DNA of 64,000 nt, from positions 3,005,001 to 3,069,000 of the forward strand of contig NZ_JAZHRU010000001.1 of assembly GCF_036924525.1 (NCBI RefSeq), read 5' to 3'. Positions 10,832 to 59,003 of this stretch are shown here, in pieces. How positions within the stretch are numbered: position 1 is the first letter of the stretch; each line of letters begins with the position of its first letter. The stretch is from Bradyrhizobium sp. AZCC 1719. GTDB taxonomy: Bacteria > Pseudomonadota > Alphaproteobacteria > Rhizobiales > Xanthobacteraceae. The position numbers and the translations under genes are program-made. The notes under the pieces are model-generated. The model was not told the DNA's origin and did no database searches. It saw only the letters and a program-made list of their open reading frames with translations.

Positions 10832-11869
10832 ATGGACGAACGCGTGACGCTGCGTTCACATCTCGAGAAGTCTATTGCGCAGATCCCGCATGGCGCGGCG
10901 GTCGGTGCGGTGATCGAGGCCATTGCCACTGCTGCAATCGAGCTCGCCGCGCTGATTGCGAATGGGCCGCTCGCTGATATCACCGGACGAGACGGCGGCA
11001 TCAATTCCGACGGCGACCGGCAGAAAGACATCGACATCGTCGCCGACGAAATGATGCGCCGTGCGCTGCGCGACGCGCCGGTGGCGGCGGTCCTTTCCGA
11101 GGAGGCGGCGCTGCCGGAAACCTTGCGGCCCGAGGCGCACCTGTGCGTTGCGATCGATCCGCTCGACGGATCGGCCAATCTCGAAAACAACATCTCGATC
11201 GGCACCATCTTTTCGATCCGCCCGAGAGGCAATGACATCCTTTCGACTTTCTTTGAGCCCGGCACGGCGCAATGCGCGGCGGGATTTTTCGTCTACGGTC
11301 CACAAACCACGCTGGTCCTCGCGCTCAACGCGCGCGTCGATATCTTCATTCTCGACCGGCGCGCGGGGGAATTTCTGCTAATCCGGCAGGCCGTGCAGGT
11401 CGCACGCGATACGCCGGAGTTCGCCATCAACGCGTCCAATCGCCGGCACTGGCATGGTCCCGTTCGCGCCTACATCGATGAATGTCTCGCCGGTACCAGC
11501 GGTGGCGGCGAGGCGGATTTCAACATGCGCTGGATCGGTTCGCTGGTTGCGGAATCGCTTCGCATTCTGGCGCGCGGCGGCGTGTTTCTCTATCCGGCCG
11601 ATGCCCGCCCCAGCTATCGCGAAGGGCGGATTCGCCTGCTGTACGAGGCCCATCCGATGGCGCTGGTAATGGAATGGGCGGGCGGCGCGGCCTCGACCGG
11701 ACGGCGGCGAATTCTGGAAGTGGCTGCGAGAACGCCGCACCAGCGAGTGCCGCTGATCATGGGTTCTTTGCGTGGCGTGCGCGACATCGCTGCCATTCAC
11801 GAAAGGATCGAGCCGATGTTCGACAATAGCGATGCGCCGCTGTTCGCGCGGCGCGGCCTGTTCCGCTGA
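10832..11869 (+). CDS. cbbF: Class I fructose-1,6-bisphosphatase (cbb operon)
   Basis: A 345-residue enzyme that splits fructose 1,6-bisphosphate (and, in bacterial Calvin cycles, often sedoheptulose bisphosphate) to release phosphate. The metal-binding motif AIDPLDGSANLENNISIGTIF contains DPLDGS, and the upstream acidic pair (LSEEAALPE) supplies further metal ligands. The active-site region near the C-terminus (YPADARPSYREGRIRLLYEAHP, with MALVMEWAGG following) matches class I FBPases. First gene of the cbb operon, preceded by a good ribosome site and the CbbR control region, and 12 bp before cbbP. Confidence 0.96.
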   Translation: MDERVTLRSHLEKSIAQIPHGAAVGAVIEAIATAAIELAALIANGPLADITGRDGGINSDGDRQKDIDIVADEMMRRALRDAPVAAVLSEEAALPETLRPEAHLCVAIDPLDGSANLENNISIGTIFSIRPRGNDILSTFFEPGTAQCAAGFFVYGPQTTLVLALNARVDIFILDRRAGEFLLIRQAVQVARDTPEFAINASNRRHWHGPVRAYIDECLAGTSGGGEADFNMRWIGSLVAESLRILARGGVFLYPADARPSYREGRIRLLYEAHPMALVMEWAGGAASTGRRRILEVAARTPHQRVPLIMGSLRGVRDIAAIHERIEPMFDNSDAPLFARRGLFR

Positions 11870-11881
11870 CGGAGCATCACG

Positions 11882-12757
11882 ATGTCGCGGGCTCATCCCA
11901 TCATATCGATCACGGGTTCGTCGGGCGCCGGCACCACGTCGGTGAAGAAGACGTTCGAGCAGATTTTCCGCCGCGAAAAGGTGGTTGCGGCCTACATCGA
12001 AGGCGATGCCTTCCATCGTTACAATCGTTTCGAGATGCGCACCAAAATGCTGGAGGAGGCCGAGCGCGGCAACAAGCATTTCAGCCATTTCAGTCCGGAA
12101 ACCAACTTGTTCGAGGAACTCGAAAAAGTGTTTCGCGATTACGGTGAATCCGGCACCGGAATGACGCGTCATTACGTCCACGACGACGAAGAGGCGAAGC
12201 TGTACGGCGCCAAGCCAGGTACATTCACCGAATGGGACCAATTGCCGGCAGGCTCCGACTTGCTGTTTTACGAAGGGTTGCACGGCGCGGTCGTGACCGA
12301 TAAGGTCAACGTGGCGCAGCATGCCGATCTCAAGATCGGCGTGGTGCCGGTGATCAACCTGGAATGGATCCAGAAGCTGCATCGCGATCGTCGCGACCGC
12401 GGCTATACCGCCGAGGCGGTGACCGACACCATCCTGCGGCGAATGCCGGATTATGTGAACTACATCTGTCCGCAGTTCGCCGAGACCGACATCAATTTCC
12501 AGCGCGTGCCGACCGTCGATACGTCGAACCCGTTCATCGCGCGGTGGATTCCGACGCCCGATGAATCGATGGTGGTGATCCGCCTCAAGAATCCGCGCGG
12601 CATCGATTTTCCCTATCTGCTGTCGATGATTCCGCACAGCTTCATGTCGCGCGCCAATTCGATCGTGATCCACGGGGCAAAGCTCGACCTGGCGATGCAG
12701 CTCATCCTCACACCACTGATCCTGCAACTGATGGAACGCAAGAGGCGCACGATATGA
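11882..12757 (+). CDS. cbbP: Phosphoribulokinase
   Basis: A 291-residue enzyme that phosphorylates ribulose 5-phosphate with ATP to make the RuBisCO substrate RuBP. The P-loop [14 protein letters not shown] is near residue 12, and [19 protein letters not shown] carries the conserved active-site segment. Length is that of the octameric bacterial (not plant-type) enzyme, which is typically activated by NADH. It overlaps cbbT by 4 bp (ATGA at 12754), so translation is probably coupled. Confidence 0.97.
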
Positions 12758-14790
12758 ATGCTCCCGCTCTGTCCCGCATAGCCAGCCGCCCGGATCTGTC
12801 ACACGCAGAGATGGCCAACGCGATACGCTTCCTGGCGATCGACGCCGTTGAAAAGGCGAAGTCCGGTCATCCGGGCATGCCGATGGGTATGGCGGACGTC
12901 GCGACCGTTCTGTTTTCGCGCTTCCTCAAATTCGATCCTTCGGACCCGGCGTGGCCGGATCGCGACCGCTTCGTGCTGTCGGCCGGCCACGGCTCGATGC
13001 TGCTGTATGCGCTTCTGCACCTGACGGGCTACGAAGGCATGACGCTGGATGAGCTCAGGGCCTTCCGGCAGTGGGCGTCGAAGACGCCCGGACACCCCGA
13101 ATATGGCCATACGGCGGGCGTCGAGACGACCACCGGACCTCTCGGGCAGGGCATCGCCACGGCCGTCGGTATGGCGCTGGCCGAGCGGCTGATGAACGCC
13201 CGTTTTGGCGACGACTGCGTTGACCATTACACCTATGTAATCGCCGGCGACGGCTGCCTGATGGAGGGGATCAGCCACGAGGCGATCTCGCTGGCCGGGC
13301 ATCTCAGGCTCAATCGCCTGATCGTGCTGTTCGACGACAACGAAATCTCGATCGACGGCGCCACGTCGCTGTCATGTTCGGATGATCAGCTCGCTCGGTT
13401 CAGGGCCGCGGGTTGGTCGGCCAGCCGAATCGACGGCCACGATCCCGAAGCGATCGCGGCCGCGATCGAGCGGGCACGCAACAGCGACCGGCCGTCGCTG
13501 ATAGCCTGCCGCACAATCATCGGCTTCGGTGCGCCGAACCGTCAGGGTACCGAGAAAGTCCATGGCGCGCCGCTGGGTGGCGAAGAAGCCGCCAAAACGC
13601 GCGATGCGTTGAACTGGCCGCACGCGCCGTTCGAGATCCCGGAAGCCGTGCTCGCGCAGTGGCGTCGGGCAGGCCGCCGCGGGCATGCCGCGCGCCGCTG
13701 CTGGATCGAACGGACCAAGCGTCTGAGTTCGGATTCCCGTTCGCCATTTCACGATGCGCTGAATCGCAACCTGCCATGCAGCTATGCGCAAGCGATGACA
13801 AAGCTGCGCGATGACTTCGCAGCCGAGCGGCCGAATATTGCCACCCGGCAGGCGTCGCAGCGCGTGATTGATGCAATCGCAGAGGCACTGCCCAATCTGC
13901 TCGGAGGCTCGGCGGATCTCACGCATTCCAACCTGACGCGGGCCAGGACCCAGCGACCGGTACAGCCCGGCTCATTTGCAGGCAGCTATGTTCACTATGG
14001 CGTCCGCGAGCACGCCATGGCGGCGGCGATGAACGGCATCGCGCTGCATGGCGGCTTCATCCCCTATGGCGGCACGTTCCTCAGCTTCGCCGATTACAGC
14101 CGTCCGGCGATCCGGCTGGCAGCGCTGATGAATATTCGCGTCATCCATGTGATGACGCACGACTCCATCGGGCTGGGCGAGGATGGTCCCACCCACCAGC
14201 CGGTCGAACATCTGGCATCGCTTCGAGCGATCCCCAATCTGCTGGTCTTCCGACCGGGCGATGCCGTCGAGACCGCCGAGGCGTGGGACTGCGCGCTACG
14301 GGCGCAGGCCAGTCCGTCCGTGCTGTGTCTGTCGCGGCAAGCGCTGCCTGCCTTCCGTGAAGGCGGTGGCGGCAATCTGGTCGCACGCGGCGCCTATGTC
14401 GTCGTCGAGCCGGAGAGCGGACGCGATGTCACGCTGATTGCGACCGGGTCGGAGGTCTCGATCGCCATCGCGGCTGCGAAAACGCTCGCAAAGGACAATG
14501 TCCGCGCGGCCGTCGTCTCGGCCCCGTGCTTCGAACTGTTTCGTCGGCAGTCGCACGAGTACCGGGCGGAGGTTCTTGGAGATGCCCCGCGGATCGGGGT
14601 CGAAGCAGCGGTTGAAGGAGAATGGGCGCGCTGGCTCGGCGACGGCGGCGAATTCGTCGGTATGACCGGCTTTGGCGCATCTGCGCCGGCGGAAACGCTT
14701 TACCGCGAATTCGGCATCACCGAGAACGCCGTCGCCATAGCGGCCATGCGCTGCATCGCGCGGTCAAGGATGGCGGCAACCTGGGCATGA
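12754..14790 (+). CDS. cbbT: Transketolase (cbb operon)
   Basis: A 678-residue thiamine-diphosphate enzyme that moves two-carbon units in the Calvin cycle. Typical blocks are the N-terminal [14 protein letters not shown], the TPP/Mg-binding segment starting [13 protein letters not shown] and continuing to the conserved Asn of DDNEIS, and in the second half [18 protein letters not shown] with the catalytic Glu, then [20 protein letters not shown]. The final domain ends in [15 protein letters not shown]. The middle (about 300-345) has an Arg-rich stretch ([15 protein letters not shown]) that looks less conserved but keeps the frame. It starts inside cbbP by a 4-bp overlap. Confidence 0.96.
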
Positions 14791-14823
14791 CGGTCACACG
14801 AGAGCAATGATACGGAGACTGCG

Positions 14824-17425
<2,602 letters not shown>

Positions 17426-17437
17426 GGAGCGGAAATC

Positions 17438-17857
17438 ATGCGCATTACCCAAGGCTGCTTCTCGTTTCTGCCCGATCTCACCGACGAGCAGATCTCGCGC
17501 CAGGTGCAATACTGCCTGGAGAACGGATGGGCGGTGAACATCGAATTCACCGACGATCCGCATCCCCGCAACAATTTTTGGGAAATGTGGGGATTGCCGA
17601 TGTTCGACCTCCGCGACGCCGCCGGCGTGATGATGGAGCTGAACCAATGCCGCAAGGTGTATGGTGACAGATACATCCGGTTGTCGGCGTTCGATTCCAG
17701 TCACGGCTGGGAATCGGTGCGGCTGTCCTTCATCGTCAACCGACCGAAGGAGGAACCCGGCTTCCGCCTCGAGCGGCACGAAGTTGCCGGCCGCAACATC
17801 CGCTACACGACCAAATCATACGCCGCCGACCGCCCCGAGGGCCGGCGTTACGCTTAG
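17438..17857 (+). CDS. cbbS: RuBisCO small subunit, form IC
   Basis: A 139-residue small subunit that caps the large-subunit octamer. It begins [19 protein letters not shown], the invariant opening of red-type small subunits, and has the longer C-terminal hairpin typical of form IC/ID ([19 protein letters not shown]). GGAGCGG precedes the ATG. A strong hairpin terminator lies 64 bp after the stop (see 17921-17955), so this is the likely main 3' end of the operon transcript. Confidence 0.97.
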
Positions 17858-17920
17858 CAAGTTACCCGGTCCGACAGACGAGTTCTCCCTGATCGTGCCT
17901 TGCGTCTGCCGGATGCACTG

Positions 17921-17955
17921 CTCCGTCGCTGTGGAAGCGGCGACGGAGTTTTTTT
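17921..17955 (+). terminator. Strong intrinsic terminator between cbbS and cbbX
   Basis: Perfect 9-bp stem CTCCGTCGC (17921-17929) / GCGACGGAG (17940-17948), a 10-base loop, and seven T directly after (17949-17955). It lies 64 bp past cbbS and 35 bp before the chosen cbbX start. It should end most transcripts after cbbLS and leave cbbX with read-through expression, or with its own promoter. Confidence 0.85.
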
Positions 17956-17989
17956 CAGACTGCGCGTGCATTGCGTCGAGGTTTGCCAG

Positions 17990-18904
17990 ATGGACTTGGA
18001 TACCGCCGACATGACAGACACGGTCAACCTCCGCGAGGAGCTCGAAGCCGTCGGCATCGAGGAAATCCTCACGCAGCTCGACCGCGAGCTGATCGGGCTG
18101 GTGCCCGTGAAAACCCGTATCCGCGAAATCGCATCGCTCTTGCTGATCGAACGTATCCGCAAGCGGCTTAACCTGACATCGGAGGTGCCGACATTGCACA
18201 TGTCGTTCACCGGTAATCCCGGCACCGGCAAGACCACGGTGGCGCTGCGGATCGCGAGCATTCTCCACAGGCTCGGTTTCGTGCGTCGCGGCCAGGTGGT
18301 GTCGGTTACCCGCGATGAGCTGGTTGGGCAATATATCGGCCACACCGCGCCCAAGACCAAGGAGGTGCTGAAGAAGGCGATGGGCGGCGTGCTTTTCATC
18401 GACGAAGCCTATTATCTCCACCGGCCCGACAACGAACGCGACTACGGTCAGGAAGCGATCGAGATTCTGCTGCAGGTGATGGAAACCCAGCGCGAGGATC
18501 TCGTGGTGATTCTTGCCGGTTACGGCGATCGAATGGATAAGTTCTTCGCCAGCAATCCCGGCTTCCGTTCTCGCATCGCCCATCACATCGATTTTCCGGA
18601 CTATTCGGAGCCAGAATTGCTTGCCATAGCCGAGCTGATGCTGCGCGACATGAACTACAAATTCAGCGCCGAGGCGCGTCAGGCGTTCATCCGCTACATC
18701 GCGCTGCGCAAGACCCAGCCGCTGTTCTCCAACGCGCGCTCGATCCGAAACGCGCTCGACCGCATGCGCCTGCGCCAGGCCAATCGTCTCGTTGCCAATC
18801 TCGATCGTGTGCTGACGGCTGACGATATCATGTCCCTGGAGGCGTCAGACGTGCTCGCCAGCCGGGTCTTTCTGAAGGACCAGTCGACGGTTCGCTCCGA
18901 GTGA
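17990..18904 (+). CDS. cbbX: RuBisCO activase CbbX (AAA+ ATPase, red type)
   Basis: A 304-residue hexameric AAA+ motor that pulls on the RuBisCO large-subunit C-terminus to release inhibitory sugar phosphates. Walker A is [15 protein letters not shown], Walker [12 protein letters not shown]; sensor and arginine-finger regions follow ([17 protein letters not shown]). The open frame begins at 17900, but codons before 17990 overlap the terminator hairpin and lack homology. Starts at 17990 (MDLDTADM) and 18011 ([11 protein letters not shown]) are both possible; neither has a strong ribosome site. Last gene of the cbb cluster. Confidence 0.95.
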
Positions 18905-35082: not shown

Positions 35083-38000
35083 ATGTCCCACTTCTTCATC
35101 GACAGACCGAACTTCGCCATCGTCATTTCGATCGTGATGGTGCTGGCCGGGCTGCTGGCGATGACCGTGATTCCGGTCGCTCAATACCCGGATATTACCC
35201 CTCCACAGGTTCAGGTGTCCGCCACCTATTCCGGCGCCAACGCACAGGATGTCGCCAATTCAGTGGCGGCGCCGGTCGAGGCTGAAGTCAATGGCGTCGA
35301 GAACATGCTCTATATGGAATCGACCAGCTCGAATAACGGCATCTATTCGTTGTCCGTGAGTTTTGCTGTCGGCACCAATCCCGATATTGCGGCAGTGAAC
35401 GTTCAGAACCGCGTCTCTCTCGCGCTCCCCCGGGTACCTAGCGAGGTCACACAGCTCGGCATCTCGAGCAAGAAGAGATCGTCAAACATCCTGCTCGGCG
35501 TGAATATCTACTCCCCGAACGGGACACACGACGGCATCTTTCTCAGCAATTATGCCACGATCAATATCCGCGATGCTCTGGCGCGCGTGAACGGCGTCGG
35601 CGAGGCCACGGTTCTCGGCGCCCTCGACTACAGCATGCGGATGTGGATGGATCCGGTCCGGATGAACGCGCTTGGTATCACGAGCACGGACGTCACCACT
35701 GCGATCAGCCAGCAGAACCTGCAGGCGGCGGCCGGCCAGATCGGCAGCGCTCCCGTGGGTACCGACCAGCAGCAGCAGTTGACCATTGTCGCCAAAGGCC
35801 GCCTGCAAACGCCGGCTGAATTCGAGAATATCATTGTGCGCACGAACCCTCAGGGGGCGGTCGTGCGCATAAAGGACATCGCTCGCGTCGAGCTGGGAGC
35901 CGACAGCTACGATGTTCAGTCGAAACTCGGCGGGAAGCCCACTGCATTTGTGGTCATATACCAGGCGCCGGGCGCCAACGCGTTGCAAGTCGCAAATGCG
36001 GTGCGCGCAGAGCTCGATCGCCTGTCGCAGCGGTTTCCGCCTGACGTCGTTCACAGCATCATCTTTGACACGACCGAGTTCGTGTCAGCTACGATCGAAG
36101 AAATCCTGCACACGCTTGCGATCACGTTCGCGCTCGTCGTCGCTGTCGTCTATCTCTTCCTTCAGGACTGGCGAGCAACACTGATCCCGACGTTGACCAT
36201 TCCGGTGTCATTGGTCGGCGTGATGGCCATTTTGTACGTCTTGGGCTATTCAGCCAACACGATCTCGCTCTTTGCGATCGTGCTGGCCATTACCCTCGTC
36301 GTCGATGACTCGATCGTCGTCGTCGAAAACGTGCAGCGCGTCATGGAAGAAGACCCCTCGCTTTCCGCGCGCGAGGCCACGCGCGTCGCGATGGGGCAGA
36401 TCACTGGTGCAATCATCGCCACCACTCTTGTTCTGGCCGCGATCTTCGTGCCTGTCGCGTTCCTGGGAGGCATTACCGGGCAGCTTTACCGGCAGTTCTC
36501 CGTCACGATCGCTTTCTCCGTAGCCCTGTCTGGCGTGAACGCGCTGACCTTGAGTCCAGCGCTTTGTGCGCTGATCCTGCGCCGCCCCCGTCATGCCAGT
36601 CGCGGCCCGTTCGGACTGTTCAATCGGCTTCTCAACGGCGTTCGCGACAGGTACGGATCCGTGGTGGGATGGCTCGGCGCGCGCCTGATCGTCATGTCCG
36701 TCTTGTTCCTCGGTGTTGGCGCGGGCGTATATTTCGGGCTGACTCGGCTGCCGGGCGGTTTCCTCCCGGAAGAGGATCAAGGCTATTTCTTCGTCAACGT
36801 TCAATTGCCAGATGCGGCATCGCTCAATCGCACAGAGGGTGTGCTTGGTCAGGTGCGTGATCTATTGAACGGATCGGAGAGCGTGAAAAACATCATCACC
36901 GTGGCCGGCTTCAGCCTGTTGGGCCAGGCACAGGCATCAAACACCGGCATGGCCATCGTGGTGCTCAAACCCTGGAGGGAGCGCACGCGCCCGGACCAAA
37001 CCGTCCAAGGCATGATTGCAGGCCTGACGCCGCGCCTCGCGGCAGTTGCCGCAGCAAACATCATTGCGTTTAACCCGCCGTCCATTCCCGGGCTTGGTAC
37101 GGCCGGCGGATTCGACATGCGACTGCAGGGCTTGGAAGGCCAGTCGTCGCAGGCAATGGTGGCCGCAGCCAACGGCCTTCTCTATGCAGCCAACCAGGCA
37201 CCGGAGATCGCGAGGGCCTTCACCACCTTCTCGGCCAGCGTTCCGCAGATCTATGTGGATGTTGATCGGACCAAAAGCCAGTTGCTCAATGTCCCGGTAT
37301 CGCAGGTTTTTGCGACCTTGCAGGCCCATTTGGGCTCGCAATATGTAAACGACTTCAATCTATCCAGTCGAGTCTATCGCGTCAGGGTGCAGGATGAGGG
37401 CAGGTTCCGCTACCGGGGCGATCAGATCAACGATCTCCACGTTCGCAGCACGACGGGAGAGATGGTGCCTCTGCGCACGCTCGTCACATTGACAACGACG
37501 TTCGGTCCGCAGCTTGTCACTCGGTTCAATCTATTCCCGTCCGTCACTATCAATGGCTCGGCGGCACCGAGCGCGAGTTCGGGGCAGGCGCTTTCCGCGA
37601 TGGAGCGCGTCGCCAATAGTGAGCTGCCGGAAGGTTTCGGCGTTGCCTGGTCTGGAATTTCATTCCAGGAAAAGCTCGTGAGCGGTCAGGCAGTCCTGGT
37701 CTACGCACTGGCTCTGCTGTTCGCCTATCTCTTCCTCGTGGCCCAGTACGAGAGCTGGTCGCTGCCGTTGTCGGTGGTTTTCTCGGTGTTGTTTGCCGTC
37801 GCCGGTGCCGTCCTCGCTCTCTGGATCGCTCGCCTTGACAACAACATCTATGCACAGATTGGGCTGGTCCTGCTGGTGGGCCTCGCCGCGAAGAATGCGA
37901 TTCTGATCGTCGAGTTCGCCAAGGAACAGCATGAAGCCGGCTTGTCTCCGCACGACGCGGCGATTGCCGGCGCCAAGCAGCGTTTCCGGCCGGTGCTGAT

Positions 38001-38226
38001 GACCGCTCTTGCATTCATCTTCGGTGTGTTGCCCCTCGTGGTCGCCACCGGCGCCGGTGCCGGCAGCAGACGAGCGCTCGGCACACCGGTCTGGGGCGGC
38101 ATGCTCGCAGCGACGTTGATCGGCATTATCTTCATTCCACCTCTCTATGTGCTGTTCGAGGCTTTGCGTGAACGTCTTGCTCGCAAACGGGCGCCGGAAC
38201 TCGCGGCGTCGCCTCCCGCCGAATAG
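35083..38226 (+). CDS. RND multidrug efflux transporter (HAE1, AcrB/MexB-like)
   Basis: A 1047-residue inner-membrane proton-driven pump with 12 helices and two large periplasmic loops, the usual size. [19 protein letters not shown] is the standard opening. Within helix 4 the proton-relay pair is kept in [23 protein letters not shown] (Asp-Asp). The helix 10 segment [21 protein letters not shown] carries the relay Lys. Substrates are probably hydrophobic drugs or solvents (family knowledge). It forms an operon with the adaptor gene and would need TolC-like help encoded elsewhere. Confidence 0.96.
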
Positions 38227-51431: not shown

Positions 51432-52310
51432 CTACTTCGTATTGGAAACCTTTGTCTTACGCACGACTTCGAGAAACGCGCGGATGATCCGGCTGGTTTC
51501 GCGTTTCCGCAAAATCACAACATGCGCATAGGTGAAGATTCCCGCATTACTGATTGGGATGAGGCGCAGAGAAGAGTCTGGAACGAACTCGGCTTCGGAG
51601 ACGTAGCTTATGCCCAACCCGCGAATGACGGCTTCGCGGATCGCCTCGCGGCTTCCGATCTCCATGACGATGCGCGGCTTGATCTTTGCCTTAGCGAGCG
51701 CTTGCTCGAACGCGCGTCGCGTCGTAGAGCCGGTCTCACGGATAATTAGTGGTTCGCCTTCGAGTTCGGAGATCTTGACGCTCTTCTGCTTCGCCAGCGG
51801 ATGATCGGTGCGCACAAAGACGCCGACTGGATGGCGTCTATATGGAAGAGTGAGAAGACGATCGTCCTCATCAATGTGCGCTAGCACCGCGATGTCGCTC
51901 TTGTAGTCAAGAAGATCATCGAGGACCTCGTGCGAGTTGCCGAGCTTCACGGCGAGTTCGATCCCCGGATAGGCGCGATTGAAGGCCGCAAGCATCTCGG
52001 TGACGTGATAGGGGCCGACCGCGCCAATCGAAAGCCGACCGGTCTTGAGCTCGCGCGACTGCTCCAGGAATGCGACCGCTTCTTCTTCCTCGGCAAACAG
52101 GCGCGACGTAATCGCCAGTAGTTGCCGTCCCGTGTCGGTCAACTCGCGGCGGCGGCCCTTCTTGATGAAGAGCTCGACGCCGTACTCCTCCTCCAGCGCG
52201 CCGACCTGGGCCGTCAGCGTCGGCTGCGTGATGTGAACTGCATCCGACGCGGCATTGAAGCCGCCTGCAGTCGCCACAGCATGGAAGGAGCGAATCTGGG
52301 TATATCGCAT
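51432..52310 (-). CDS. LysR family regulator of the phosphonate cluster
   Basis: A 292-residue LysR protein. The N-terminal helix-turn-helix is SFHAVATAGGFNAASDAVHI then TQPTLTAQVGALEEEYGV. The effector domain has GAVGPYHVTEMLAAFNRAYPG and IIRETGSTTRRAFEQAL. LysR proteins of this subgroup are found beside 2-aminoethylphosphonate genes in rhizobia and pseudomonads. It is divergent from the Fe-ADH gene with 136 bp between. It probably activates the operon in response to a phosphonate, independent of phosphate starvation; I did not find a clear Pho box. Confidence 0.9.
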   Translation of the reverse strand: MRYTQIRSFHAVATAGGFNAASDAVHITQPTLTAQVGALEEEYGVELFIKKGRRRELTDTGRQLLAITSRLFAEEEEAVAFLEQSRELKTGRLSIGAVGPYHVTEMLAAFNRAYPGIELAVKLGNSHEVLDDLLDYKSDIAVLAHIDEDDRLLTLPYRRHPVGVFVRTDHPLAKQKSVKISELEGEPLIIRETGSTTRRAFEQALAKAKIKPRIVMEIGSREAIREAVIRGLGISYVSEAEFVPDSSLRLIPISNAGIFTYAHVVILRKRETSRIIRAFLEVVRKTKVSNTK

Positions 52311-52446
52311 AGAACAAATCTATCTATTTCTCTGAAAAAATCAATTTGTCGATGTAACAGCGTTCAGCAATGGTCCGGACCACAACGAGCGCTCACGAGA
52401 AGCGCGGAAGCAGCAGCGCTTCAGGCGCGATCAAGGGTGGAACGTT
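52311..52446. promoter_or_regulatory. LysR/Fe-ADH divergent control region
   Basis: 136 bp with an AT-rich left half and a perfect 12-bp palindrome TGGTCCGGACCA at 52371-52382. It holds the promoters for LysR and for the phosphonate operon. No match to the Pho box consensus was seen by eye. Confidence 0.55.
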
Positions 52447-53538
52447 ATGCGGTGGGCCTACTGGAATCCCGTAAAAGTTCGCTTCGGCGCAGGGACATTC
52501 GATGAAGTCGGAGGTCTGATCGGCAAGCGCCGCTATGCCCTCGTGACCTATAATCAACCGATTTTCAACGACCTGGCGGCGCGCCTTACAAAGGTCGCGG
52601 GCGAGCCGGTTGCCGTCATCGACAATATCGAGACCAACCCGGACTGCGCCGATCTGGTGAATTCCTGCCGTGTCTTCGGCGCTGCAACGCAAGCGCCTGA
52701 AGTCATCGTTGCCCTCGGTGGAGGCTCGATGATGGATGCGGCCAAGGTGCTGGCTGGAAGCAAGGGCGACTTCGAGAATGTCCGCCGCCATCTTACCGAG
52801 AAGGCCCCGCTGGACACGTCGGCGATCGTGCCGATCATTGCGGTGCCGACTACTTCCGGAACAGGCAGCGAAGTCACCCATTGGGCAACCGTGTGGGATT
52901 CGGCCAACGGCAGCAAGTATTCGCTGGCGCATCCGTTGCTCTATCCCGAAGCCGCCGTGCTCGATCCGCAGCTTATCCTTGGGGCGCCGCGAGGGCTGAC
53001 CCTGGCGACCGGTCTCGACTCCCTGTCACATGCGCTCGAGAGCATCTGGAACGTCAACGCCAACTCGGTCTCGGCCGGCTTCGCGGTCGAGGCCGCGCGC
53101 GAGATCATCGAAACGCTGCCGCGCCTGCTCGACAATCTCGGCGATATCGATCTGCGCACCCGTCAGGCGCGCGGCAGCCTGCTCGCCGGCTTCGCTTTCT
53201 CGCAGACCAAGACGGCTTTGGCCCACAACATCTCCTACGACATTACGCTGAAGATCGGACTGATCCACGGCATCGCCTGTTCGTTCTCGCTGCCGATCGT
53301 GATGGGGTGGGCAATAGGCAATAGCCCCGACTGCGACGCCGCACTGCGCCGCATCTTTGGCCCGGACCTCAGCGAAGGTGTCCGCAAGCTGCGGTCTTTC
53401 CTCGAGGGGATCGGCGTCAAGACTGATCCTGCCACCTACGGCGTTTCGCCGGCGGAATGGACACGCCTGGTCGAGAAGGCGCTGGAAGGCGAGCGCGGCA
53501 GGAATTTCATTGGAAGGCAGACGGTCAAGGCAGCGTAG
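52447..53538 (+). CDS. Iron-type alcohol dehydrogenase, probable phosphonoacetaldehyde reductase / 2-hydroxyethylphosphonate dehydrogenase
   Basis: A 363-residue group III (iron-dependent) alcohol dehydrogenase. ALGGGSMMDAAKV is the NAD(P)-binding motif, VPTTSGTGSEVT the second. Metal ligands are all in place: Asp191 and His195 (TGLDSLSHALE), His260 (LAHNISYD) and His274 (LIHGIAC), with the same spacing as in FucO. The opening MRWAYWNPVKVRFGAG resembles phosphonoacetaldehyde reductases (PhpC-like) that interconvert phosphonoacetaldehyde and 2-hydroxyethylphosphonate. Placement directly before phnDCE, phnA and phnY supports a catabolic role: oxidation of hydroxyethylphosphonate to the PhnY substrate. 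The ADH assignment is firm; the substrate is inference. Confidence 0.85.
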   Translation: MRWAYWNPVKVRFGAGTFDEVGGLIGKRRYALVTYNQPIFNDLAARLTKVAGEPVAVIDNIETNPDCADLVNSCRVFGAATQAPEVIVALGGGSMMDAAKVLAGSKGDFENVRRHLTEKAPLDTSAIVPIIAVPTTSGTGSEVTHWATVWDSANGSKYSLAHPLLYPEAAVLDPQLILGAPRGLTLATGLDSLSHALESIWNVNANSVSAGFAVEAAREIIETLPRLLDNLGDIDLRTRQARGSLLAGFAFSQTKTALAHNISYDITLKIGLIHGIACSFSLPIVMGWAIGNSPDCDAALRRIFGPDLSEGVRKLRSFLEGIGVKTDPATYGVSPAEWTRLVEKALEGERGRNFIGRQTVKAA

Positions 53539-53620
53539 TGAAACAGACCTAGAGGCGAACACGCCCATCACAAACCACCGGCAATGGTCAAAAAGACCAA
53601 CGGAATCACAGGAGGAAAAC

Positions 53621-54496
53621 ATGAACATCACGCGTCGGAAAATGCTCGTCGGGTCCGTTGCTGTGGCCGGCGCCTTGGTCGCCATGCCGAATGTGTTGCG
53701 TGCAGAGGGTGTGATCCGCGTCGGTCTCATTCCATCAGAAGATTCTCGCGCGATGCTGGCGTCGAGCCAGCAGCTGCTCGATGCGCTCGAAAAGAATCTC
53801 GGCATGAAGGTGCAGGGGTTCGTTGCCGCCGACTACAACGGCGTCATCGAGGCGATGCGCGCCGGTCACATCGAGGTAGCCTATCTCGGACCGTTCTCCT
53901 ATGTGCTCGGCGCCTCCGTGGCCAACATCGAGGCGTTTGCTACCGCCGAGACACAAAAGTCCGGACGTACTTTCTATCACAGCCAGATCATCACACGGAA
54001 AGACAGTGGCATCAAGGACATCAACGATCTGAAGGGCAGGACCTTCGCGTTCGTCGATCCGTCTTCGACTTCCGGCCATCTCTTCCCCAAGGCCGGCCTG
54101 CTCAAGCTCGGAATCGACCCGGAGAAGTTCTTCGGCCGCGTTCTTTTCACCGGCTCGCACGATGCCAACGCACTGGCGGTCGCCAACAAGCGTGTCGACG
54201 CGGCCACCATCGCTGACCGCATCTTCGACGCCGCAGTGCAGAAGAATCTCGTCAAGCGCGAGGACATCCACGTCGTGTGGAGTTCTGACCCGATCCCGGA
54301 ATCGCCGACGGTGTGGCGCAAGAATCTGACACCGGAACTGAAGGCAAAGATCAAGACCGCGTTCTTGAACATCAAGGACATCACCTGGGCCGACCAGGGC
54401 AAGCTCAACCGCTTCGTCGAAACCAACGATGCAGCCTACGATGTGATTCGGGATACCGCAAAGGCGCTCAATCTCGATCTGAAAAAGATGAAATGA
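53621..54496 (+). CDS. phnD: Phosphonate ABC transporter substrate-binding protein
   Basis: A 291-residue periplasmic protein. GGAGG precedes the ATG. The leader (MNITRRKMLVGSVAVAGALV) has a twin-arginine-like TRRKMLV, so Tat export is possible. VIRVGLIPSEDSRAML, EVAYLGPFSYVLGA and FVDPSSTSGHLFPKAG are the phosphonate/phosphate-ester pocket motifs of PhnD, and NKRVDAATIADRIFD follows. The ligand is likely a C2 phosphonate such as hydroxyethyl- or aminoethylphosphonate or phosphonoacetate. Confidence 0.95.
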   Translation: MNITRRKMLVGSVAVAGALVAMPNVLRAEGVIRVGLIPSEDSRAMLASSQQLLDALEKNLGMKVQGFVAADYNGVIEAMRAGHIEVAYLGPFSYVLGASVANIEAFATAETQKSGRTFYHSQIITRKDSGIKDINDLKGRTFAFVDPSSTSGHLFPKAGLLKLGIDPEKFFGRVLFTGSHDANALAVANKRVDAATIADRIFDAAVQKNLVKREDIHVVWSSDPIPESPTVWRKNLTPELKAKIKTAFLNIKDITWADQGKLNRFVETNDAAYDVIRDTAKALNLDLKKMK

Positions 54497-54547
54497 GCCC
54501 GCTGCGCTGACCCGCCGTAACCAACCCTCCGGCATAGGATTGCTCAG

Positions 54548-55369
54548 ATGATCAAGATCGCAGGTTTGAAGAAATCTTACGGCGGGAAGCCGGTGCTCCA
54601 GGGCATCGACCTCGAAGTCAAGTCAGGCGAATTCCTCGTCGTGCTGGGGCCGAGCGGCGCCGGAAAATCCACCATGCTCCGTTGCATCAACGGCCTCACG
54701 CCGCCGGACGCCGGCCAGATCGTCATCGACGGCACGATCTTCGACTCCAAACGCGCGGCCGGCGGACGCTTGCGCCCGGTCGCGATGATCTTCCAGCACC
54801 ACAACCTGGTAAAGCGACTCACCGTACTCAAGAACATCCTGGTCGGTCGCATGGCCGGGATGTCGTCGATCCTCTCGGCGCTTCAAATCTTCCCGACGAA
54901 GGACGTCGAGATCGCAATGGAATGTCTTCAGCGCGTCGAGCTGACACACAAGGCAATGGCGCGCGCCGACCAGCTCTCCGGCGGCGAGCAGCAGCGCATC
55001 GGCATTGCCCGTGCGCTGGCCCAACGCCCGGCGGTCATCCTGTGCGACGAGCCGGTGGCCAGCCTCGACCCGAAAACCTCGCGTGTCGTGCTCGGCTATC
55101 TCAAGACGATCTGCAAGGAAGAAGGCATCGCCGTCATCTGCAATCTGCATCAGGTCGACTACGCAGTCGAATTTGGCGAGCGCATCGTTGGTCTCTCGGG
55201 CGGCAAAGTGGTGTTCGACGATACGCCGGACCACCTCACTGTCGACGTCGTGCACCAGATCTATCCGGGATTGGAAGATCCGGGCGTCGCCCGCGTGTTG
55301 CGGCCGAATGCCGGCCCACGCCTGGTGTCGAATTCGCTCGATCCCATCGCCCTTGCGGCATCCGCCTGA
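54548..55369 (+). CDS. phnC: Phosphonate ABC transporter ATP-binding protein
   Basis: A 273-residue ATPase. Walker A is LGPSGAGKSTMLRC, the ABC signature LSGGEQQRIGIARAL, Walker B ILCDEPVASLDP, and the switch His in CNLHQVDYA. GRMAGMSSILSALQIFPTKD is the PhnC insertion between Q-loop and signature. The C-terminal ~20 residues (GPRLVSNSLDPIALAA) extend past the core fold. It powers import through PhnE, which begins 13 bp after its stop. Confidence 0.96.
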   Translation: MIKIAGLKKSYGGKPVLQGIDLEVKSGEFLVVLGPSGAGKSTMLRCINGLTPPDAGQIVIDGTIFDSKRAAGGRLRPVAMIFQHHNLVKRLTVLKNILVGRMAGMSSILSALQIFPTKDVEIAMECLQRVELTHKAMARADQLSGGEQQRIGIARALAQRPAVILCDEPVASLDPKTSRVVLGYLKTICKEEGIAVICNLHQVDYAVEFGERIVGLSGGKVVFDDTPDHLTVDVVHQIYPGLEDPGVARVLRPNAGPRLVSNSLDPIALAASA

Positions 55370-55382
55370 GCAGGAGACGACC

Positions 55383-56180
55383 ATGTCCAGCTACCAACTC
55401 GTTCTTCGTCCGCCTCAGGGCCGCTTCGGCTGGTGGGGCACCGGCGTCCTCGGTCTGGTGATCGTGGGCTTCCTCTATTGGGCTGCAGTCGGATCGCAGA
55501 TCAACGCGGCCAATCTCTGGAACGGCATCCCTTATATGTGGGACTTTCTGGTCCGCATGATGCCGCCGAATCCGGAGTTCATTGAGAAGCTCTGGCGGCC
55601 CGCGCTGGAAAGCCTGCAGGTCGCGATCTGGGGAACGTTGCTCGGCGTGGCGATCTCGCTGCCGATCAGCTTTTTTGCGGCTCGCAACCTTTCACCGCAT
55701 CCGGCGATTTATCACTTCACCCGCCAAGTGCTGAACTGCATGCGCGGCATCAACGAGATTATCCTGGCGCTGATCTTCGTCGCCGCCATCGGCCTCGGCC
55801 CGTTCGCCGGCGTGCTCGCTCTCGCCATCCACGGCGCGGGTATGCTCGGCAAGTTCTTTGCCGAAGCCATGGAAGACATCGACGAAGGTCCGCTCGAAGC
55901 GTTCCGCTCGGCGGCCGCCGGCCCGTTCAAGACCTTCTTCTTCGGCGTGCTGCCGCAAGTGCTGCCGGCCTGGCTCGGTACCATCTTCTACCGTCTCGAG
56001 ACCAACGTGCGCCAATCCACCGTGCTCGGCATGGTCGGCGCGGGCGGCATCGGTTTCGAACTCGTGTCCTCGATGAAGCTGTTCCAATATCAGGACACGG
56101 CGACCTGCATCCTGGTCATCCTTGCGATGGTGTTGGTCACCGACCTCCTTTCCTCCCGCGTCCGCTCGATGATCCGCTGA
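55383..56180 (+). CDS. phnE: Phosphonate ABC transporter permease
   Basis: A 265-residue inner-membrane protein with about six helices. QVAIWGTLLGVAISLPISFF and RGINEIILALIFVAAIGLGP are usual for PhnE; the coupling loop contains EAMEDIDEGPLEAFRSAAAGP (EAA motif). TVLGMVGAGGIGFEL is the standard helix near the C-terminus. The frame is open back to 55005 inside phnC, but ATG at 55383 with GGAGACGACC upstream is right. A 115-bp gap follows before phnA, which could hold a secondary promoter. Confidence 0.95.
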   Translation: MSSYQLVLRPPQGRFGWWGTGVLGLVIVGFLYWAAVGSQINAANLWNGIPYMWDFLVRMMPPNPEFIEKLWRPALESLQVAIWGTLLGVAISLPISFFAARNLSPHPAIYHFTRQVLNCMRGINEIILALIFVAAIGLGPFAGVLALAIHGAGMLGKFFAEAMEDIDEGPLEAFRSAAAGPFKTFFFGVLPQVLPAWLGTIFYRLETNVRQSTVLGMVGAGGIGFELVSSMKLFQYQDTATCILVILAMVLVTDLLSSRVRSMIR

Positions 56181-56295
56181 CGCAACTCGGCCGGCACCGA
56201 ACATTGCCGGGCACTTTATCCGCCTCTCGGTATTGCCGGGAAAAGGTACCCCCTTAGAGCGTCACCGCGTGGCGCAACACTGGAAAGGATGAGCC

Positions 56296-57540
56296 ATGCT
56301 CACACGTACTCCCGCTTTCGTGACGACGAATGGCCGAAGCTATCGCGTCCCCAATACCCCGACCGTCGTCATTTGTATCGACGGTTCCGAGCCCGGCTAT
56401 ATCGAGCGCGCTATCGAGAAGGGACTCTGCCCCAACCTCGAACGGATACTGAAGACCGGCACGAACACGCTCGCGCTGTCGGTGATCCCGAGTTTCACAA
56501 ACCCGAACAACCTGTCGATCATCACCGGCCGACCGCCGGCCGTGCACGGCATCGCCGGCAACTTCTTCTATGACCGCGAGGCAAAGCAGGAAGTAATGAT
56601 GAACGACGCCCGCTTTCTGCGCGCACCCACGATCCTCGCCGAGTTCCAGAAGGCCGGCAGCAAGGTCGCCATGGTGACCGCGAAGGACAAGTTGCGCACG
56701 CTGCTGGGGAAGGGCCTCGACTTCCAAAAGGGAACCGCCATCGCGTTCTCGTCGGAGAAGGCCGACAAGGCCAACATGGCCGAAAACGGCATCGAAAACG
56801 TGCTCGAATTCGTCGGCATGAAGTTGCCGGAAGTCTATTCGGCCGATCTGTCGGAGTTCGTCTTCGCGGCCGGCGTCGAGCTGCTCAAGACCTTCCGGCC
56901 GGACGTGATGTATCTTTCGACCACGGACTACGTGCAGCACAAGGCGGCGCCGGGTTCTGCGATCGCCGACAGCTTCTACAAGATGTTCGACCGCTACGTC
57001 GGAGAGCTCGATGCGCTGGGCTGCGTGCTGGTGATGACCGCCGATCACGGCATGAACGACAAACATCTGCCAAACGGCGAGCCGGACGTCATCTACCTGC
57101 AGGAGATCCTTGACGGGAAATTCGGTGCCGGGATGACGCGCGTGATTCTGCCGATCACAGACCCGTACGTCGCGCATCATGGTGCGCTCGGCTCATTCGC
57201 GACTGTCTACGTCGATAACGACAAGCGGCAAGCCGTGCTCGATCACATCAAGACTATCGCGGGGGTCGAGGTTGCGATCCCGGCGGAAGAGGCGTGCAAG
57301 CGGTTCGAGCTTCCGGCCGACCGTATTGGCGACGTCGTCGTGCTGTCGTCGAAACACAAGGTGCTCGGCACCTCCGCCGCCAAGCACGATCTGTCGGGAC
57401 TAACTGAGCCGCTGCGTTCGCACGGCGGTCTCACGGAGCAGACCGTGCCGATGATCGCGAATCGAAAGATCGTGGTTCCTGCCGGCCGTACGCTGCGCAA
57501 TTTCGACGTATTCGACGTCGCGTTGAATCTCGTAGCCTGA
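56296..57540 (+). CDS. phnA: Phosphonoacetate hydrolase
   Basis: A 414-residue zinc hydrolase of the alkaline phosphatase superfamily that splits phosphonoacetate into acetate and phosphate. Active-site residues can be placed from the sequence: Asp29 (VICIDGSEP), nucleophile Thr68 (SFTNPNN), Asp211 and His215 (TTDYVQHK), Asp250-His251 (TADHGMND) and His376 (SHGGLTEQ). The numbers agree, or nearly agree, with the Sinorhizobium meliloti enzyme as I recall it. GGATGAGCC precedes the ATG. phnY follows after 11 bp. Confidence 0.97.
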
Positions 57541-57551
57541 GGATCGATGCC

Positions 57552-59003
57552 ATGAACGTGCCTTTCAGTTACGCAGCAAAGCGAGAGGCGTTGCGCATTG
57601 CCGGCAAACACGTCACGACCGACGATGTGATCGAGGTCCGCAATCCCTACGACGGGTCGCTCGTCGGCACCGTGCCGGCAGCGCGCCCCGAACACGTGCG
57701 CGAAGCGTTTGGCAAGGCGAAAGCGTTCAAGCCAAAACTGTCGCGCTTCGAGCGTCAGCAAATTCTGCAGAAGGCTGCTGAACTGCTGCGCGGTCGGCGC
57801 GCATCCTTCGCGCGTATCATATCCGCGGAGTCCGGCCTCTGCTGGAAGGACGCGATCTACGAGTCGACGCGCGCCTACGACGTCTGGTCGTTCGCCGCAC
57901 AACTCGCGGTCAAGGACGACGGCGAGTCCTATGCCTGCGACATCTCGCCGAACGGCAAGGCGCGCCGTATCCACACGCTGCGGACCCCGTTGCTGGGCGT
58001 CATCTCGGCGATCACGCCATTCAATCATCCGCTCAACATGGTGAGCCACAAGCTCGCGCCTGCGATCGCAACGAACAACCGGGTCGTTCTCAAACCGACT
58101 GAGCTGACTCCGCTGACCGCACTTGCACTCGCGGACGTGCTCTACGAAGCGGGACTGCCGCCTGAGATGCTCTCCGTGGTCACGGGTAATCCGTCCACGA
58201 TGGGTGATGCGATGATCACGGATCCGGACGCAGACCTGGTTACTTTCACGGGCTCCGTTCGGGTCGGCAAGCACATCGCCCGCACCGCAGGCTACAAGCG
58301 TATCGTGCTCGAACTCGGCGGCAACGATCCGCTGATCGTCATGGAGGACGCCGACCTCGACAAGGCGGCCGAGCTGGCCGTGCAGGGCGCGACGAAGAAT
58401 TCGGGCCAGCGCTGCACAGCGGTGAAGCGCATTCTCGTCGTCGAGAAGATCGCCGATGAATTCTCGAAATGCGTGCTCGAAAAGGCCAGGAAGCTGAAAT
58501 GCGGTGACCCGGCCGATCCGGAAACCGATGTTGGCACGGTCATCAATGAACGATCCGCTGTTCTGTTCGAGAACCGTGTCAATGACGCGGTGACGAAGGG
58601 CGCCGAGCTGCTTCACGGCAACGATCGCCAGGGCGCCCTTTATGCCCCAACCGTCGTCGACCGCGTGCCGTACGATTGCGAACTCGTGCATGAGGAGACG
58701 TTTGGACCAGTGATCCCGATGATTCGCTGTCCGAACGACATCGCAGAGGTGATCCGCATTTCAAATTCGACAGCCTACGGGCTGTCTTCCGGAGTTTGCA
58801 CAAATCGCCTCGATTACATTACGCGCTTCATCAACGAACTTGAGGTCGGCACCGTGAACGTGTGGGAGGTGCCGGGCTATCGCACCGAGATGTCGCCGTT
58901 CGGCGGCATCAAGGACTCCGGGCAGGGCTACAAGGAGGGAGTTGTGGAGGCCATGAAAGGGTTCACCAACGTCCGGACGTACTCGCTGCCCTGGCAGGGT
59001 TAA
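57552..59003 (+). CDS. phnY: Phosphonoacetaldehyde dehydrogenase
   Basis: A 483-residue aldehyde dehydrogenase family enzyme that oxidises phosphonoacetaldehyde to phosphonoacetate with NAD+. Catalytic Cys288 is in [10 protein letters not shown] (with the Arg just before it) and the general base Glu254 in [27 protein letters not shown] and [12 protein letters not shown] are the cofactor-binding parts. The [10 protein letters not shown] form with Arg next to Cys is typical of phosphonate-specific members. Last gene of the cluster; its product feeds PhnA. No PhnW transaminase or PhnX hydrolase gene is nearby. Confidence 0.96.

Follow-up and report, generated by a model that had tools for sequence, protein, structure and literature searches.

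A recurrent Bradyrhizobium operon in which an iron-containing alcohol dehydrogenase is predicted to oxidize 2-hydroxyethylphosphonate for PhnY and PhnA

We examined a window of 64,000 nt from the soil bacterium Bradyrhizobium sp. AZCC 1719 (NZ_JAZHRU010000001.1, positions 3,005,001 to 3,069,000 of the forward strand), and within it an operon at 51432-59003 in which an iron-containing alcohol dehydrogenase (Fe-ADH) stands at the head of genes for phosphonate import and breakdown. Oxidation of 2-hydroxyethylphosphonate (HEP) by this enzyme, feeding PhnY and PhnA, is the reading that we favor, with a probability of about 0.77 judged from sequence comparisons. PhnDCE would import HEP, the Fe-ADH would oxidize it with NAD(P)+ to phosphonoacetaldehyde (PAA), PhnY would oxidize PAA irreversibly to phosphonoacetate, and PhnA would hydrolyze phosphonoacetate to acetate and phosphate. 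Alcohol oxidation is unfavorable, but the next step, by an aldehyde dehydrogenase or a hydrolase, is irreversible, and PhnY would in this way pull the first reaction forward. An Fe-ADH paired with an aldehyde dehydrogenase is known from choline oxidation (GbsB with GbsA), and the weaker NCBIfam hits of the window include a model of GbsB type.

The argument for this pathway comes from the company that the Fe-ADH keeps. Its steady companion is a consumer of PAA, so the enzyme probably makes PAA from HEP. Its partners belong to two unrelated PAA-consuming routes, PhnY-PhnA and PhnX, to which this intermediate is common; they occur with or without PhnW and often with importers, which argues that the Fe-ADH supplies PAA. 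HEP is the predicted substrate because it is the alcohol that gives PAA on oxidation, and the importer genes within the operon provide supporting context. Gene content, family assignments, the lack of PhnW, PhnX and phosphoenolpyruvate mutase over cut-off in the genome, and the recurrence of the module with PhnY-PhnA or PhnX are computed results; what the enzyme acts on, which cofactor it uses, which way it runs, what the importer carries and how the operon is controlled are inferences. The first-pass annotation had likewise read the Fe-ADH as oxidative and the operon as one for HEP degradation; comparison leaves this the best-supported reading, and the interpretation as a whole is partly supported.

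An Fe-ADH heads a phnDCE-phnA-phnY operon

All seven open reading frames annotated at first pass are present, with a LysR gene divergent from Fe-ADH-phnD-phnC-phnE-phnA-phnY. Two starts were corrected: phnD most likely begins at 53621 and phnE at 55383. The last six frames, from the Fe-ADH to phnY, share the plus strand and are separated by gaps of 11 to 115 bases. Six of the seven products exceed curated NCBIfam cut-offs, LysR being the one below. The Fe-ADH (52447..53538, plus strand), an iron-containing enzyme of type III and a predicted HEP dehydrogenase, scores 450.4 bits with TIGR03405 (cut-off 423.7) and adjoins the phosphonate transport and catabolism genes phnDCE, phnA and phnY.

The two downstream enzymes are well defined. 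PhnA, a phosphonoacetate hydrolase (56296..57540, plus strand), reaches 555.4 bits with TIGR02335 (cut-off 407.55), and PhnY, a phosphonoacetaldehyde dehydrogenase (57552..59003, plus strand), reaches 780.5 bits with TIGR03250 (cut-off 635.65). Both keep their catalytic motifs, at the residues that we take to be catalytic, and both align over nearly their full length with a solved enzyme (PhnA with 3szy, 549.8 bits; PhnY with 4i3t, 656 bits). The importer comprises the substrate-binding protein PhnD of a phosphonate ATP-binding cassette (ABC) transporter (53621..54496; TIGR03431, 276.8 bits, cut-off 261.1), the ATPase subunit PhnC (54548..55369; TIGR02315, 303.7 bits, cut-off 266.1) and the permease subunit PhnE (55383..56180; TIGR01097, 296.5 bits, cut-off 216.7), all on the plus strand. 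The closest solved relative of PhnD is the phosphite-binding PtxB (5o2j, 170 bits), a match that says little about the ligand of PhnD. The entire gene order is preserved in four other loci (L018, L019, L024 and L140), so the arrangement is not due to chance.

PhnW, PhnX and PEP mutase in the complete genome

The genome is complete, a single contig of 7.2 Mb. The first-pass annotation had found no gene like phnW, phnX or pbfA in the operon, and for the first two this holds genome-wide: the best model hits are 98.2 bits for PhnW (cut-off 400.8) and 41.5 bits for PhnX (cut-off 220). Hits below cut-off mean little for these models because all 14 control genomes give them as well. A PhnW hidden elsewhere in the genome is ruled out by this search; the annotation had said that one co-regulated with the operon would overturn its reading. 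No PbfA-like gene lies in the operon, the extent over which PbfA was sought.

Phosphoenolpyruvate (PEP) mutase, or PepM, is likewise below cut-off genome-wide (best hit 86.5 bits against 319.55, with below-cut-off hits in six of the 14 controls too), which rules out a place for the Fe-ADH in a cluster for phosphonate biosynthesis here. The best genome-wide hit for an HpnW-type FAD oxidase is 48.5 bits, below its cut-off of 285.1. The carbon-phosphorus (C-P) lyase protein PhnJ is present (490 bits), so the organism may already use HEP by the radical route. Elsewhere in the window lie Calvin-cycle genes for fructose bisphosphatase, transketolase and the RuBisCO large chain (10832-17425) and a gene for an AcrB-type RND efflux pump of 1047 residues (35083-38226).

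The Fe-ADH belongs to a distinct phosphonate-linked clade

The TIGR03405 family that includes the Fe-ADH is labeled 'Phn_Fe-ADH', and its model is now titled 'iron-containing alcohol dehydrogenase PsrA'. Among the matches listed (the best 80 of 582), the closest named relatives are Bradyrhizobium proteins with 96% and 94% identity. Residues D191, H195, H260 and H274 align with what we take to be the four metal ligands of FucO, including the one matching position 195, and form an Asp-His-His-His site.

The first-pass annotation had likened the enzyme to phosphonoacetaldehyde reductases of antibiotic pathways, and we compared it with such a protein, the pepM-linked reductase L171 of Roseovarius aestuarii. 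L171 is 29% identical to the window's Fe-ADH and scores 163 bits with TIGR03405, below the cut-off of 423.7; with L171-type relatives identity ranges from 26 to 31% in the rows compared. NCBI gives several L171-type members the name phosphonoacetaldehyde reductase; the set was gathered by similarity, and the pepM neighborhood is known for L171 alone. We built a tree of 126 rows after dropping six near-duplicates, with few outgroups, long branches and no PhpC or FomC sequences. The 101 TIGR03405-type rows fall into one clade and the 20 L171-type rows into another (support 98 and 100); the two join each other before the outgroups (support 99) and are thus nearest to each other among the few sequences used; this join is uncertain because the branches are long. 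The phylogeny therefore bears out the annotation in part: conserved residues are common to both groups and the nearest grouping is with the pepM-linked reductases, but with a separate clade and 26-31% identity the likeness is only loosely right.

We then compared residues across 107 TIGR03405-type sequences (near-duplicates included), the best 120 of 4638 L171-type relatives and six other Fe-ADHs. Position 195 is His in all 107 TIGR03405-type sequences, that of the window included, and in all six other Fe-ADHs, and Gln in all 120 L171-type sequences examined; on this alignment, the Gln-195 reductases may have a different metal site. Thirteen positions are common to both phosphonate clades and occur in at most two of the six other Fe-ADHs; they include S159, W201, T256, Y264, T267, R350 and N353. 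R350 aligns with FucO Cys361, presumably a pocket residue, and is for that reason a candidate phosphonate anchor. The common residues are consistent with a common HEP/PAA substrate pair.

R. aestuarii carries both types in one genome, the PepM-Ppd-Fe-ADH set containing L171 (7439-11095) and a TIGR03405 enzyme (L086, 427.6 bits), and is perhaps a maker and a user of HEP at once. On plasmids, five regions with PepM had no Fe-ADH at E 1e-6, and two distant Fe-ADHs had no phosphonate genes annotated nearby.

The Fe-ADH recurs beside two PAA-consuming routes

Recurrence on plasmids and in other genomes rules out the arrangement as a one-off. The Fe-ADH lies beside phnA-phnY on annotated plasmids of Ensifer, Leisingera and Variovorax, beside phnX instead on plasmids of Agrobacterium and Comamonas, and on two plasmids of Vibrio pelagius with just phnC, phnE and the gene for a PhnD-type binding protein. 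The annotation of these seven plasmid stretches includes no phnW; another two plasmid loci are unannotated. The first-pass annotation had known of no such arrangement as an established pathway. The arrangement does not stand alone: it is recurrent and covered by NCBIfam TIGR03405, and the accessible part of PMC9381506 had noticed such dehydrogenase genes in catabolic operons and suggested the opposite direction for them.

We assembled 89 loci, consisting of 80 genome loci (the best 80 of 582 relatives, one genome per species) and the 9 plasmid loci. The alignment used as query for the 80 consisted of Fe-ADHs from phosphonate clusters, so they are not a random sample, and PhnW was represented in the locus comparison by four references. 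Within 10 kb of the Fe-ADH, PhnA occurs in 33 loci (31 with PhnY), PhnX in nine, PhnW in two and none of the three in 47. Both PhnW-bearing loci have a PAA consumer too, PhnA-PhnY in one and PhnX in the other. On the Fe-ADH tree the partner switched between PhnA and PhnX at least four times.

Most of the partnerless loci lie in genomes that encode a partner elsewhere. Thirty-nine of the 47 were traced into their 38 genomes, the other eight being three plasmids and five short contigs. PhnA is over cut-off elsewhere in 32 of these genomes and PhnX in two more, or 34 of 38 in total.

Fe-ADH, PhnA and PhnW across the order

A sample of 397 genomes of the order is fairer than the 80 best-match loci. 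The Fe-ADH is found at E below 1e-80 in 18 genomes (17 over cut-off); at the thresholds used for the other proteins, PhnW is found in 92 (87), PhnA in 86 (84) and PhnX in 59 (58). PhnA accompanies the Fe-ADH in 18 of 18 genomes against 86 of 397 overall, with a probability of 2.4e-13 if genomes are taken as independent. The Fisher tests on this sample are uncorrected for ancestry, and a partial correction comes from counting genera, where PhnA is present in all 10 Fe-ADH genera against 40 of 141 (1.4e-6). Co-occurrence in 18 of 18 genomes rules out that the two are together by chance.

At the level of loci, the Fe-ADH and PhnW seldom occur together near PhnA. Of 93 PhnA loci, 53 have only PhnW within 12 kb, 10 only the Fe-ADH, one both and 29 neither; PhnW is thus missing from 10 of the 11 PhnA loci near an Fe-ADH, and the rarity of the two together (1/93) has a Fisher p of 5.9e-4, uncorrected for ancestry.

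This distribution bears on whether the operon serves the uptake of phosphonoacetate or PAA, with the Fe-ADH acting on another alcohol or being an accessory dispensable for the main substrate. In favor of this, PhnA loci lacking both PhnW and an Fe-ADH are common (29/93), and PhnD could bind several phosphonates. PhnY would be idle if phosphonoacetate alone were used, and neither the rarity of the Fe-ADH and PhnW at one PhnA locus nor the pairing of the Fe-ADH with PhnX as well fits such a role, so we consider uptake of these compounds quite improbable as the function of the operon. Twelve of the 29 PhnA-only loci (L180-L191) were examined, hand-picked rather than random. None has PhnY within 5 kb and two have it about 7 kb off; one is a contig of 4.9 kb, which shows little. 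Most of these loci, which have no PhnW, Fe-ADH or close PhnY, adjoin genes with weak similarity to an oligopeptide-type ABC importer, and the class perhaps serves phosphonoacetate itself.

Weighing the direction of the reaction

Several observations weigh against HEP oxidation as the role of the Fe-ADH. ADHs catalyze reversible reactions, and some proteins of the group carry the NCBI name 'phosphonoacetaldehyde reductase'. Four of the 38 genomes with partnerless loci (L071, L076, L089 and L096) have neither PhnA nor PhnX over cut-off; three of the contigs (L071, L076 and L089) end about where PhnA lies in the relatives L075, L010 and L084, which may reflect a gap in assembly, and we still count them as misses. 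PepM is over cut-off in six of 79 ADH-bearing genomes, a set that includes at least two duplicates (G006/G421 and G094/G416), and one of the six is the close relative Bradyrhizobium sp. LMTR 3 (L170, G436), with a PepM of 328.6 bits against the cut-off of 319.55. Finally, 10 of the 18 Fe-ADH genomes of the order sample have PhnW as well, above background (Fisher p 0.002), and in these the Fe-ADH could act on PAA made by PhnW. The earlier claim that the Fe-ADH replaces PhnW is thus right for this locus and genome but does not extend to those ten. The excess of PhnW could follow from the dependence of both enzymes on PhnA, and in nine of the ten genomes PhnW is 200 kb away from the Fe-ADH or on a different contig.

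As a separate observation, about 9 kb from its PepM gene Bradyrhizobium sp. LMTR 3 carries another PEP-mutase-like gene (280.4 bits).

An alternative is the reverse reaction, in which the Fe-ADH would reduce surplus or PhnW-derived PAA to HEP, either for synthesis from aminoethylphosphonate (AEP) or as an overflow or detoxification valve. Formation of the alcohol is thermodynamically favored, a distant relative in a pepM-ppd cluster is named PAA reductase, and PhnW occurs somewhere in those ten genomes of the order. Synthesis of HEP by PhnW together with PhpC is also suggested in the available portion of PMC9381506. However, the usual sources of PAA are missing from many of the genomes concerned: in eight of the 18, this genome included, the PhnW search finds nothing at E below 1e-80, and no PepM in any of the 18 passes its cut-off. 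Moreover, the importer genes and PhnY-PhnA of the same operon would compete for PAA. We therefore consider the reductive direction improbable and retain oxidation of HEP, with PhnY and PhnA downstream, as the preferred reading.

Regulation and import

The divergent LysR-type regulator (51432..52310, minus strand) scores 318.6 bits with TIGR03339 phn_lysR, below the cut-off of 341.1. A divergent LysR lies within 600 bases of the Fe-ADH in 64 of the 89 loci, and the LysR of the window is the probable regulator of the operon. An ATAG-N7-CTAT dyad of the T-N11-A type (52309..52323) overlaps the LysR start codon and is a candidate operator, through which LysR would probably act. It is the sole copy in the window (0.10 expected), and all eight aligned intergenic regions retain it. 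Among 73 divergent LysR-ADH intergenic regions the exact form is present in 17 (0.24 expected), including the PhnX-type Agrobacterium cluster, and missing in 56. A scan for promoters and terminators was uninformative, with three promoter-like sites (1.5 expected) and three terminator-like sites (7.2 expected).

Import varies more than the catabolic core. An oligopeptide-type ABC importer occurs in nine of the 89 loci, L009, L011, L021, L041, L047 and L015 among them, and a transporter of the major facilitator superfamily (MFS) follows in 19. A Na/Pi cotransporter-like protein is encoded within 9 kb of the Fe-ADH in eight loci (L010, L048, L066, L071, L074, L075, L083 and L084; in L010 at 16457-18142, PF02690) and perhaps exports surplus phosphate.

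The oligopeptide-type loci raise the question of whether the Fe-ADH oxidizes a derivative of HEP, such as an ester, instead of free HEP. Eight of the nine have no PhnDCE, and five encode a PHP-domain homologue; against a cut-off of 26.4, the PHP-domain model gives 30.7 bits in the Ensifer locus L009 and, falling just short, 25.7 bits in L011. The Variovorax locus L015 has two phosphodiesterases, one calcineurin-like and one of type I. These genes suggest that an esterified substrate is used in those organisms, and HEP in marine high-molecular-weight material occurs as esters according to the accessible parts of PMC5649143 and PMC9381506. The window's operon, by comparison, has PhnDCE and no esterase. 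Since PhnX, PhnY and PhnA take the free acids as substrates, any ester would need cleavage somewhere along the pathway. A derivative as the actual substrate of the dehydrogenase is thus highly improbable.

On balance, we lean towards a broader picture in which the TIGR03405 clade would consist of committed HEP dehydrogenases within a modular and widespread proteobacterial system for HEP mineralization. The importers (PhnDCE, PhnDC with two PhnE-like permeases, oligopeptide-type ABC or MFS) and the PAA-cleaving ends (PhnY-PhnA or PhnX) would be interchangeable, phosphoesterases would open esterified HEP to some clusters, and the whole would be a gas-free alternative to C-P lyase. The His/Gln difference at the metal site would then separate the oxidative from the biosynthetic enzymes.

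Comparison with known systems

HEP is among the most abundant phosphonates of marine high-molecular-weight organic matter, according to the available text of PMC8931226, and its synthesis is described in the accessible part of PMC12366243. Among the literature matches listed, none reports the use of HEP through Fe-ADH, PhnY and PhnA; subscription papers are mostly missing from them, so this does not prove that there is none. The words 'hydroxyethyl' and 'alcohol dehydrogenase' do not occur in the main text, as available, of the 2023 review PMC10574752, nor does 'iron-containing' in that of PMC12366243 or PMC10590968. If the proposed pathway is right, HEP users could escape surveys in which phosphonate use is recognized by phnW or C-P lyase.

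The closest known system is PhnWYA of Sinorhizobium meliloti, which converts AEP to acetate and phosphate. The same PhnY and PhnA families and the same intermediates, PAA and phosphonoacetate, would be involved here. In contrast to PhnWYA, the operon and its genome have no PhnW above cut-off; the PAA-forming step is assigned to the Fe-ADH, and the substrate would be HEP.

Other enzymes enter the same pathways. The Pbf enzymes feed PAA into PhnYA or PhnX; in the accessible parts of PMC8154272, PMC10590968 and PMC12366243 they comprise the lyase PbfA, the FAD oxidoreductases PbfB-D and the racemase PbfF, which works with PbfA. Like the Fe-ADH as read here, each recurs next to phnYA or phnX as an additional enzyme and turns a further natural phosphonate into PAA, and most PbfD2 clusters, as far as described in that material, are also without phnW. 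The Pbf enzymes belong to other superfamilies and have other substrates. PMC12366243, in the part available, points out that oxidation of HEP would feed the hydrolytic pathways and reports that PbfF was tested for this reaction and excluded. The arrangement described here would be another entry into the PAA pathways; the module recurs and is already covered by an NCBI family. By score the window's Fe-ADH is a member of TIGR03405, whose model output gives no reaction, and our literature search found no explanation for the origin of the name PsrA for this enzyme.

Reductases of the PhpC/FomC type from antibiotic biosynthesis, listed under CDD cd08182 in the accessible part of PMC5125639, are likewise type III Fe-ADHs with the same predicted HEP/PAA pair. 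S159, W201, Y264, T267, R350 and N353 are common to the window's enzyme and the pepM-linked L171 with its relatives. The PhpC/FomC type works reductively beside pepM and ppd, whereas the window's genome has no PepM over cut-off. The window's Fe-ADH also differs from L171 in its separate clade and in His195, which is Gln in L171, a feature seen here rather than an established definition. In the portions available, PMC9381506 reports that 53% of phpC genomes have no pepM and that some phpC genes lie inside AEP catabolic operons, for which it suggests that PhnW and PhpC make HEP from AEP. If our reading holds, that direction is reversed, and such genes mark consumers of HEP and not producers.

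The route by which bacteria are described to use HEP, in the accessible text of PMC5649143, is C-P lyase, which gives phosphate and ethylene. Both it and the operon would allow HEP to serve as a source of phosphorus, and PhnJ is encoded in the same genome. C-P lyase is a radical system under Pho control that releases ethylene, whereas the operon would be hydrolytic and give acetate and no gas. The control might differ as well: phosphonohydrolases under LysR control are described in the available part of PMC9381506 as substrate-induced rather than tied to phosphate starvation, and the HEP route proposed here might be regulated in the same way.

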